Source: Hamadaea flava
GTDB lineage: Bacteria; Actinomycetota; Actinomycetes; Mycobacteriales; Micromonosporaceae
Length of the DNA stretch: 64,000 bases
Direction: 5' to 3'
Assembly (NCBI RefSeq): GCF_024172085.1
Contig: NZ_JAMZDZ010000001.1
Coordinates: 4,836,001 to 4,900,000 of the forward strand
The notes below the pieces were generated by a model. That model searched no databases. It saw nothing but the letters and a program-made list of their open reading frames with translations, and was not told the DNA's origin. Positions within the stretch are counted from its first letter, which is position 1. Each line of letters begins with the position of its first letter. Below are positions 32,880 to 48,942 of this stretch, one piece after another. The translations under genes were made by a program, and so were the position numbers.

Positions 32880-34991
32880 ATGCGGAACTGGGCCGGCTGG
32901 CTGGTGCGGGGGCGATGGCTGATCGTCGCCGGGTGGGCGCTGCTCGCGATCGCGGGCGGCGCTCTCGGCGGGAGCGTCTACGACCACGCCCAGAACGTCG
33001 GCCAACTCTCCGCCGACGCCGAGTCGCTGCGAGCCGAAGCCCGGCTGCAGCAGCTCAAGCCGGAGGGTGAGACGGTCTTCGCGATCTCCCGGGACGTGAA
33101 CCCGTACGACCCGGCGCTGGTCGCGACGACGACCGAGGTGGCGCAGCAGCTGCGGGGGATGGCCGGCGTACGCGACGTCGGCGACCTCTACACCGCGCCG
33201 GGCGGTCAGATCGGCCAGGACGAGCGGAGCACCTTGGTCCGGGTCACCTTCACCCCCGGTACGCCCGACGCCGAGATCGACGCCGCCGTCACGGTCCTGC
33301 GTCGCCTGCCGAACGTGCTGGTAGGCGGCAAGCCGCTGGCCGAGCGTGCGTTCACCGAGCAGGCCGTGGCCGACGCCGCACTCGGGGAGGGCGTCGCGCT
33401 CGCCGCCCTGGCCCTGTTACTCGTCGTCGTGCTGCGCTGGGGCGCGGTCGCACCGCTGGCCGCGGCGGTCGCCGCGATCACCACCACCGTGCTCGCCCTG
33501 TCCGGGCTCGCCCTCGTGACGGCGGTCAGCGAGTACACCGTCAACGTGGTGACGCTGCTCGGGCTGGGGCTGGCCGTCGACTACTCGATCCTGCTGCTCT
33601 GGCGGTATCGCGAGGAGAACGACCTGGCCGCCGCGCTGCGTACGGCGGGGAGAGCGGTGCTCGTGTCCGGTGGCGTGGTCGGTGTCGCCATGGCCGGGCT
33701 GGCCGTCTTCGGGGAACCGCTGCTCGCGGCGATGGCGCTCGGTGGACTGCTCGTCACGGTGGTCGCCACGGCTGCTTCGCTGACGCTCACGCCCGCCCTG
33801 CTCGCCATCCTCGGACCGCGGCTGGTGGCCCGCGAGCCTCGCCGCGGACGTTGGTTGATCTTGAATGGAAAACGTCGCCATGGCAACGCCAACGATTCAA
33901 GATCAATTCTGACCAGGCTGGCCGCCGTCGCGCAGAAGGGTCCGGAGTCGGTCGCCTTCGCCAGCACCGCACTGTTGATCATCCTGACCCTTCCGTTCGT
34001 CGCCGCCGACCTCTGGAACACCGACGCGCGCGGGTTGCCGAGCGGCGTGGAGGCGCGGCAGGCGTACGAGGTCTATCTGCGCGACTTCCAGCGCGATCAG
34101 GCCGACGCCGTCACCGTGGTCGTGGACACCGGCAGCGGTGGAGCGGCGATGCGGGATTACCTCGATCGGCTCAACCGGCTGCCCGGGGTCGGCCGACTGC
34201 AACTCCGGCTGGAGATGCCGCCCGAGGCGACGGTCGTCGACCTGACCCCGGTGAGTTCCGGCCAGGGTCCGGCGGTCGTCCGAGCCGTCCGTGAGGTTCC
34301 GGCGCCGGCGAACTCCCTGGTCGGCGGGCCCGCCGCGGAATTAGCGGATTACCAGGATTCGGTTACCGGTCACTTTCCGGTCGTGCTGATAGTCCTGTTG
34401 GCGGCAACCGGAGCGCTGCTCTTCCTGCTCACCCGGTCGATCGTCATCCCGGTGAAGGCGGTCCTGCTCAACCTGCTGACCCTCGGGGCGTCGCTGGGCG
34501 TGCTCGCCGTGGTCTTCGGGGGCCGCCTCGACGCCACGACGCCCGTCCTGCTCTTCGTCTTCATCTTCGGGCTGACCACGGACTACGAGGTTTTCCTGCT
34601 CGCCCGGATCACCGAGGAGCACCGGTCCGGGTACGCCACCGACGAGGCGGTCCGGCGGGGCATCGCGCGTACGGGTCCGGTGGTGACTCTGGCCGGACTC
34701 AGCCTGATCCTCGTCTTCCTGGGCTTCGTCCTGGGTGGCCTGTCCGCCGTACGGGAGATCGGCGTCGGGATGGCGGTGGCGATCGCCCTGGACGTGACCG
34801 TCGTCCGGGGTCTGCTGCTCCCGGCCGTGATGACCCTGCTCGGCCGCTGGAACTGGTGGCCCGGCGACCCAACTGCTGTTGAAGAGGGCCTCGCCGCCCA
34901 ATCACCGGACGGACCGGTCACCGGTGAAGAGAGCCCCGAGTGGGCTCCCAGCCGGGCCCCAGAAGCGGATCAGAAGATCACGAGCCGATAA
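32880..34991 (+). CDS. MMPL/RND-family membrane transporter
   Basis: A 703-residue transporter with the two-fold MMPL architecture: one span, a periplasmic-side loop, five spans (about 165-320), a cytoplasmic stretch, one span near 360, a second loop, and five more spans (about 500-650). Proton-relay Asp motifs are LGLAVDYSILLLWRYREE and FGLTTDYEVFLLARITEE. MMPL proteins export lipids or small amphiphiles. The stretch at about residues 322-345 is encoded by a palindromic insertion (33855-33906) that keeps the frame. It starts 48 bases after the dehydrogenase, so read-through is possible. Confidence 0.92.
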   Translation: MRNWAGWLVRGRWLIVAGWALLAIAGGALGGSVYDHAQNVGQLSADAESLRAEARLQQLKPEGETVFAISRDVNPYDPALVATTTEVAQQLRGMAGVRDVGDLYTAPGGQIGQDERSTLVRVTFTPGTPDAEIDAAVTVLRRLPNVLVGGKPLAERAFTEQAVADAALGEGVALAALALLLVVVLRWGAVAPLAAAVAAITTTVLALSGLALVTAVSEYTVNVVTLLGLGLAVDYSILLLWRYREENDLAAALRTAGRAVLVSGGVVGVAMAGLAVFGEPLLAAMALGGLLVTVVATAASLTLTPALLAILGPRLVAREPRRGRWLILNGKRRHGNANDSRSILTRLAAVAQKGPESVAFASTALLIILTLPFVAADLWNTDARGLPSGVEARQAYEVYLRDFQRDQADAVTVVVDTGSGGAAMRDYLDRLNRLPGVGRLQLRLEMPPEATVVDLTPVSSGQGPAVVRAVREVPAPANSLVGGPAAELADYQDSVTGHFPVVLIVLLAATGALLFLLTRSIVIPVKAVLLNLLTLGASLGVLAVVFGGRLDATTPVLLFVFIFGLTTDYEVFLLARITEEHRSGYATDEAVRRGIARTGPVVTLAGLSLILVFLGFVLGGLSAVREIGVGMAVAIALDVTVVRGLLLPAVMTLLGRWNWWPGDPTAVEEGLAAQSPDGPVTGEESPEWAPSRAPEADQKITSR
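33855..33906. repeat. Palindromic element inside the MMPL gene
   Basis: Outer arms TTGATCTTGAAT (33855-33866) and ATTCAAGATCAA (33895-33906) are perfectly complementary. Inside, CGTCGCC/GGCAACG (33873-33879/33882-33888) forms a second arm around the centre. Base composition is poorer in GC than the gene around it, and the encoded residues are polar and unrelated to MMPL sequence. It looks like a small non-autonomous palindromic repeat that entered the cytoplasmic-loop coding region without breaking the frame. Confidence 0.7.
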
Positions 34992-48752: not shown

Positions 48753-48897
48753 CGTTAATACTCCTGGCCTGCGTCTTCGGGGCACGGGGACACCGGACAG
48801 CATAGCCGCGGAGCAGGTGCGGGCAACCGGCCGGGATTCATCGACGAAGTCCCGGAGGAGGTACAGCTGTCGGGTTGCCGACCCGGCGTCCTGGCAT

Positions 48898-48937
48898 ACA
48901 GTAAGGGCGCCGAGCCGCAGCTCGACGCCCTTACTGT
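48898..48937 (-). terminator. Terminator of tRNA-Leu
   Basis: ACAGTAAGGGCG (48898-48909) is perfectly complementary to 48926-48937, with CGAGC/GCTCG nested inside. The hairpin begins five bases after the tRNA 3' end on the minus strand. Confidence 0.82.
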
Positions 48938-48942
48938 AGCGG

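Follow-up and report, generated by a model that had tools for sequence, protein, structure and literature searches.

The gene for an MMPL-family transporter of Hamadaea flava was found to carry, in frame, a 52-base palindrome that is a copy of a dispersed family of palindromes of about 50 bases. The family is probably REP-like, spread or maintained by a cognate enzyme, with the copy in the transporter gene being a tolerated by-product. Palindromes of this kind flank genes for nucleases with a DUF559 domain, which may be the enzyme in question. The window, that is the whole stretch of DNA analysed here (64,000 nucleotides, positions 4,836,001 to 4,900,000 of contig NZ_JAMZDZ010000001.1, assembly GCF_024172085.1), belongs to a genome of 8.86 Mb in a single contig, designated G000. 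The features under study are collected in Table 1.

Table 1 Features of the palindromic element and its host gene, in positions of the window.
Feature	Position	Strand	Evidence
Palindromic element, 52 bases	33855..33906	.	71 bits, E 2e-19 by covariance model
Conserved family unit, 50 bases, type A (TGATCTTGAAYRG...)	33856-33905		
Left outer arm TTGATCTTGAAT	33855..33866	+	
Right outer arm ATTCAAGATCAA, fully complementary to the left outer arm	33895..33906	+	
Inner stem, central CATG (CGTCGC CATG GCAACG)	33873..33888	.	
Host gene, MMPL-family transporter, 703 aa	32880..34991	+	PF03176, E 1.9e-56

The full sequence of the element is TTGATCTTGAATGGAAAACGTCGCCATGGCAACGCCAACGATTCAAGATCAA. It is an imperfect palindrome with 20 of its 26 positions paired and an inner arm centred about CGTCGCCATGGCAACG. 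An earlier note, made from the letters of this DNA, had described perfect 12-base outer arms with an inner arm and a GC content below that of the host gene; its coordinates proved exact, and the GC contents are 44% for the element and 70.5% for the gene. Folded as single-stranded DNA, the element reaches -13 kcal/mol against a mean of -6.2 for shuffled sequences (z -3.6), and none of 200 shuffles equalled it. The palindromic shape alone is only moderately unusual, because palindrome starts with exact arms of at least 12 bases and a span of 40–64 occur five times in the window against 0–2 times per Markov simulation (n = 15). The decisive point is membership in a repeat family rather than shape, and the covariance model that gave the match in Table 1 was built from 21 copies, MMPL copies excluded.

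In the reading frame of the transporter the element encodes LILNGKRRHGNANDSRSI, residues 326-343, so the in-frame palindromic insertion claimed by the earlier note is indeed present, as a copy of a family. An AlphaFold2 model of the protein had a pLDDT of 86.7, with residues 320-339, flanked by two long helices, as its sole internal stretch below 50. Since the element overlaps this stretch, its peptide is predicted to occupy a floppy interhelical loop. Four of the six frames of this copy are open.

A 30-base query gave five matches in G000 at 0–3 mismatches, palindromes with exact 10-base arms numbered 10, a looser pattern raised the count to 13, and a scan with the covariance model, trained on the 21 non-MMPL copies, disclosed at least 45 copies at at least 35 sites. 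The arms, whose copy number the earlier note had proposed as a check, are therefore repeated and not unique. The unit is nearly constant at 50 bases and consists of a 13-base arm, 4 bases, a 6-base inner arm and a 4-base centre, followed by the mirror of these parts. Three arm types were distinguished by eye, A (TGATCTTGAAYRG), B (TGATCTAGGCGAGAAATGG) and C (TGATCTTGGCGAG). Besides single copies there are close doublets of A and B, 61–73 bp from start to start, at 10 of the 35 listed sites. By eye, the A-like and B-like doublets are those at 2519983, 2755886, 4282823, 5994398, 6825767, 7027333, 7059037, 7093982, 7130135 and 7537901, the B partner of the first matching weakly. In a covariation count in which the outer 8 pairs were set by the search pattern and are hence uninformative, 31 cells were altered on both sides (shuffles, 15.9) and the covariation score stood at 0.179 (shuffles, 0.103), neither value being reached in any of 500 shuffles; pairs with a double-sided change (7 of 23) were not above shuffles (7.7). 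No match was obtained with Rfam at gathering thresholds in loci L040, L091, L163 and L323. Elsewhere in the window, a 42-base palindrome at 48897-48938 (TACAGTAAGGGCGCCGAG...) fell, by eye, outside the families named here and may be a terminator or another repeat.

Gene context was taken from a codon-usage ORF caller trained on six genes of the window. By this criterion 33 of the 35 listed sites lie outside called genes, and the distribution is 2 intragenic, 14 convergent, 17 tandem and 2 divergent; the flanks of the nuclease gene described below account for two of the 35. With 87.6% of the window coding but two of the 35 sites intragenic, the family counts as a REP-like repeat of extragenic DNA, not one adapted to coding regions. 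The other intragenic copy was found in a WD40 gene, where it encodes ELTLNRNRRPGDANHSRS in a Gly/Ala-rich linker and is read in the same frame as the MMPL copy. With four of six frames of the MMPL copy open, this shared frame is a weak sign of selection and not strong evidence for it.

The transporter orthologues of two congeners, G002 (87% identical) and G003 (85% identical), carry the element at the same site and in the same frame, as type C and type A, respectively. The candidate explanation that the element is confined to the source species was ruled out by these orthologues. A third congener, G001, has an MMPL protein of 65% identity without the element, and the segment is absent from all 22 aligned MMPL homologues beyond the two Hamadaea orthologues. 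The comparison of orthologues that the earlier note had suggested thus places the segment in the close relatives and leaves it missing from all 22 others, the congener at 65% identity included. Between G000 and G002, five pairs of the element were changed on both sides, four of which are paired in both copies, and the G002 copy is identical at 47 of 50 positions to a type C copy of G003. This difference of subtype looks like replacement or conversion in place. Comparison of these sequences suggests that the MMPL copy is a tolerated insertion, which would predate the split of the three species and would have undergone at least one replacement after it.

A blind scan of the same loop in 25 aligned MMPL genes gave scores of 12, 13 and 7 for the copies of G000, G002 and G003; among the other 22 homologues a score of at least 12 was reached solely by L044 (22), followed by L052 (10). 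In L044 (2495-2563), an MMPL homologue of G012 from another genus, the loop holds an unrelated palindrome of about 65 bases with TCACGTTTTGCAGC arms, and this arm was found in none of the other loci among the 319 compared.

Site occupancy varies among related species. Site 5345661 is occupied by type B in G000 and G002 and by type A in G003, and is empty in G001; at site 1385328 G000 has B where G003 has A; site 5730780 holds C in G000 and type D, a further palindrome described below, in G002 and G003. A similar comparison was made at one 3' slot of the g4 genomes, which we take to be Micromonospora-like, for 18 of the 20 genomes (G270 and G278 were left out). The slot contains a nuclease cassette in L276. 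One of the 18 genomes lacked the left anchor, G232 and G294 had as little as 59–62 bp between the anchors, eight had 102–136 bp with an unrelated palindrome of the GGGCCCC type, and seven had longer, differing content. Clean empty sites with a target duplication were sought in G001-G003 and in the g4 genomes; although an element is clearly present or absent at several places, none was resolved, the 3' intergenic flanks being too diverged to fix the boundaries; nor was a transposition event or intermediate resolved in the genomes compared.

Some copies are paired, at a distance of 1045–1055 bp in G000, G002 and G003 and of 1068 bp in G216 and G294. ORFs were listed for two of these loci, from G000 and G216; one evident gene, that of a predicted DUF559 nuclease, lies between the paired copies, where no transposase was seen, and no gene for an AbiEii toxin was recognised by eye in the same lists. 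The cassettes are mostly stationary among close relatives and occupy at least two unlinked locations. At the locus where G000, G002 and G003 have the nuclease, G001 has a D-like palindrome and no nuclease. In L091 a beta-galactosidase-like gene (735-2345, named by eye) ends in the left palindrome of the cassette, the TGA of the palindrome serving as stop codon. The nuclease gene of G003 (L093 2057-3160, compared with L091 2343-3437) is inverted relative to its neighbours and is bracketed by type B instead of type A.

The nuclease was assigned in Pfam to DUF559, with a weak match to AbiEi_4. Its structural model (pLDDT 89.6, pTM 0.84) gave a match to the AbiEi antitoxin 6y8q (E 3e-5); weaker matches were to Rv2827c (1zel, E 0.008) and, by Foldseek, to the EDxHD domain of I-Bth0305I (3r3p, E 0.014–0.026, TM 0.72–0.75 by target length). 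On this model the protein is predicted to consist of an AbiEi-like DNA-binding half and a DUF559/Vsr-like half with the EDxHD homing endonuclease fold. Alignment of 24 proteins out of 30 loci disclosed seven invariant columns, among them E211, D243, E254 and D256, which are putative catalytic-type residues. At E 0.01 in Pfam, DUF559 was recognised in 20 of the 24 members, MTES_1575 in 10, AbiEi_4 in 10, AbiEi_1 in 4 and PvuRts1I-like_N in 1, and PF01797 (Y1/HUH) was absent from all 24. The PADLOC AbiEi models match all 24 aligned AbiEi-DUF559 proteins at the same threshold, and scans for defence systems may count such proteins as parts of toxin-antitoxin systems despite the nuclease domain. 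Relatives of the nuclease had no match among PLSDB plasmids.

The association of nuclease genes with palindromes was observed well beyond Hamadaea. A query in 10 genomes returned 30 loci, whose DUF559 genes comprise a close subfamily and more distant members; these loci were scored blindly. In these Micromonosporaceae loci the flanks reached a palindrome score of at least 12 on 41 of 60 sides, compared with none of 56 distal windows and one of 50 MMPL flanks; at this score 15 genes have a palindrome on both sides, 26 on at least one and 4 on neither. In a phylum sample of 29 loci from other genomes the corresponding figures were 19 of 58 sides, with 6 loci positive on both sides, 13 on at least one and 16 on neither, or, with the locus of the source genome (L231) included, 20 of 60 sides against 0 of 60 distal windows, two of which belong to that locus; part of the phylum-sample palindromes may be other repeats. 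Left and right flanks resembled each other above the distal maximum (20, n = 58) at 16 of 30 family loci and 13 of 29 phylum loci, a comparison that rests on the distal-window control, the mismatched-pair control being inflated by orthologous cassettes. Matching palindromes also flank the distant DUF559 genes L126, L127, L132 and L135, which are about 26–31% identical to the nuclease first found, and their arms differ from those at that nuclease.

Within the close subfamily, 36 cassettes have palindromes on both sides in 19 cases, on one side in 11 and on none in 6 (score of at least 10, within 220 bases), the last group including L290, which lies at a contig edge, is misframed and was kept outside the Mantel test. 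Left-right palindrome similarity was 0.64 within cassettes and 0.18 between them, and nuclease identity correlated with palindrome similarity over the 30 cassettes with a palindrome (Mantel rho 0.68, none of 2000 permutations as high). This result can partly be explained by physical linkage and common descent and alone is no proof of recognition. Across 300 family genomes, screened with the R1 pattern, which detects one palindrome type only, palindrome and close nuclease occurred together in 106, the palindrome alone in 38, the nuclease alone in 46 and neither in 110 (Fisher p 1e-14, uncorrected for phylogeny). A close nuclease is thus lacking in 38 of the 144 palindrome-bearing genomes; G001 likewise has copies of the palindrome and no nuclease of the close subfamily.

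Since linkage and common descent can yield part of the Mantel signal, unlinked copies offered a better test. A blind census away from the cassettes (score of at least 14) covered 660 kb in G000, 400 kb in G216 and 400 kb in G006 and yielded 47, 16 and 23 palindromes, respectively, 86 in total. These were matched to 50 nuclease-flank palindromes from 10 genomes, with 470, 160 and 230 shuffles as controls. Nineteen of the 86 (13 in G000, 1 in G216, 5 in G006) matched a nuclease flank better than every shuffled control, and for all 19 the best match was a nuclease of the same genus, in 14 cases of the same genome. The cross-genome best matches were those of four G000 copies to a nuclease flank known only from G002 and of one G216 copy to a G006 nuclease. 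By nuclease gene, the 13 matches of G000 went to L323 (7), L126 of G002 (4), L127 (1) and L320 (1). None of the dispersed copies sampled in G216 and G006 (400 kb each) matched the cassettes that these two genomes have of the close subfamily; the nuclease matched was L136. The G216 palindrome at L379 12086-12147, which matches the flank of the G006 nuclease L136, may belong to an unseen G216 orthologue or be an orphan.

By eye, about 13 of the 47 palindromes of the 660 kb G000 sample are of type D (GGATCAGGGTTCCGGGTCGAATCTTG; for example L342 17269-17329 and L347 8643-8697), and no nuclease partner was found for this type. Extrapolated from the census rate of G000, the palindromes of a single genome may number several hundred and belong to several coexisting families.

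These observations suggest how the nuclease might mobilise the palindromes. The AbiEi-like half would bind the palindrome, the nuclease half would nick or cut it, and copies would then move, or be converted where they stand with another copy as the repair template. At the MMPL gene, a stop-free frame of the palindrome would have entered a variable loop between transmembrane helices and added about 17 mostly polar residues; the element probably has no transporter function of its own. It is conceivable, at somewhat less than an even chance, that the AbiEi-DUF559 proteins of Actinomycetota, entered in profile libraries as AbiEi antitoxins or under a domain of unknown function, are at large palindrome-specific nucleases of REP-like selfish elements unrelated to RAYTs, each lineage maintaining one palindrome family through homing-like cuts that are repaired from a template. 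Such a process would explain the switching of subtypes in place, the turnover at 3' slots and the occasional in-frame insertions that add peptide.

Among the alternatives, host function comes first. The palindromes could be transcription terminators or stabilisers of mRNA 3' ends that are under selection and that the nuclease gene uses as insulation, which we regard as unlikely. The avoidance of divergent promoters in the counts of convergent, tandem and divergent sites given above would suit such a role, as would the many sites within about 100 bases of a gene end and the unrelated palindromes that fill the same 3' slot across species. It does not, however, account for sequence-specific arm families common to nuclease flanks and unlinked sites, for arms such as TGATCTTG, which exceed the needs of a terminator, or for two in-frame copies inside genes, and the copies read showed, by eye, no U-tract.

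Slightly less probable is a MITE-type family moved by an ordinary transposase (DDE or HUH/RAYT) encoded elsewhere, with the DUF559 gene as passenger. MITEs and REPINs are typically short, dispersed and palindromic, with doublets among them, and the elements described here share these traits. Yet the sole evident gene between paired copies in the ORF lists of G000 and G216 is the DUF559 gene, and matching palindromes with other arms flank the four distant DUF559 genes as well.

The palindromes might also be operators, the AbiEi-DUF559 protein acting as a transcription factor or defence protein that controls its own gene and a regulon, with mobility incidental; this we consider a little more doubtful again. 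According to excerpts of one report, AbiEi antitoxins bind pairs of 23-bp inverted repeats and autoregulate through inverted repeats in the promoter (PMC7319586), and the PADLOC matches to all 24 aligned proteins fit this reading. Against it, copies stand downstream of the nuclease gene and not just upstream, divergent promoter regions are avoided, site occupancy is not conserved, and the catalytic-type residues are invariant in the 24 proteins. Last, the MMPL segment might be taken for ordinary coding sequence that happens to be palindromic, and the natural variation of the loop in length and sequence could be cited in favour; this idea is ruled out by the dispersed copies, of which the intergenic one at 6825830 is identical at 48 of 50 positions, and faces in addition the 71-bit match to a model built without MMPL copies and 44% GC inside a 70.5% gene.

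Bacterial palindromic repeats best known for an enzyme partner are tied to HUH (RAYT) transposases. The present data suggest that nuclease-linked palindromes are an undescribed kind of spreading repeat. In the open-licence literature no paper was found that links DUF559 with such palindromes or AbiEi with DUF559, nor, judged by titles and abstracts, was a report found of such repeats in Micromonosporaceae. If recognition and spread by the nuclease are true, a second, unrelated enzyme would be paired with dispersed palindromes, and this lifestyle would have evolved more than once; a common and poorly named actinobacterial family, labelled antitoxin by a defence-gene library, would acquire a role, and nuclease-palindrome pairs with specificity readable from sequence would be predicted.

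Of the known systems, the AbiE type IV toxin-antitoxin resembles the nuclease in its N-terminal half, which matches the AbiEi antitoxin 6y8q, and differs in that here a nuclease domain is fused on. As in I-Bth0305I and related EDxHD/Vsr-like homing endonucleases, whose catalytic domain the C-terminal half is predicted to resemble, the gene forms a self-contained cassette; it differs in that no intron or intein was seen around it, in the fusion of the nuclease half to an AbiEi-like domain, and in its flanking palindromes, which are also found singly at other places.

REPs co-vary with their RAYTs, and REPINs, which are reportedly doublets of REP palindromes, pair two palindromes of one kind, whereas the doublets described here combine A-like and B-like palindromes. 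In REP/RAYT systems, as excerpts of PMC2817692 describe them, palindromes are dispersed outside genes and the enzyme gene is bracketed by two of them. The palindromes of Hamadaea likewise are dispersed, mainly extragenic, occur in doublets and bracket an enzyme gene. Unlike in REP/RAYT, an enzyme with a predicted AbiEi fold and a DUF559/Vsr-like half takes the place of the Y1/HUH tyrosine transposase, and the repeat unit has two nested stems in about 50 bases. Inspection by eye of the flanks of 45 copies showed symmetric TGATC ends but no GT(A/G)G or other shared head.

The parallel with Rickettsia that the earlier note had raised holds in part. Rickettsia palindromic elements are given in excerpts of PMC10969869 as about 150 bp long, with nearly half inserted in ORFs. 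Like them, the palindromic repeat described here stands in frame in unrelated genes, MMPL and WD40, in the same frame in both, and adds a similar peptide; the parallel is loose in that the unit has 50 bases and that only two of the 35 listed sites are intragenic. The MMPL and WD40 copies show how, in bacteria other than Rickettsia, such repeats can supply proteins with new peptide segments.
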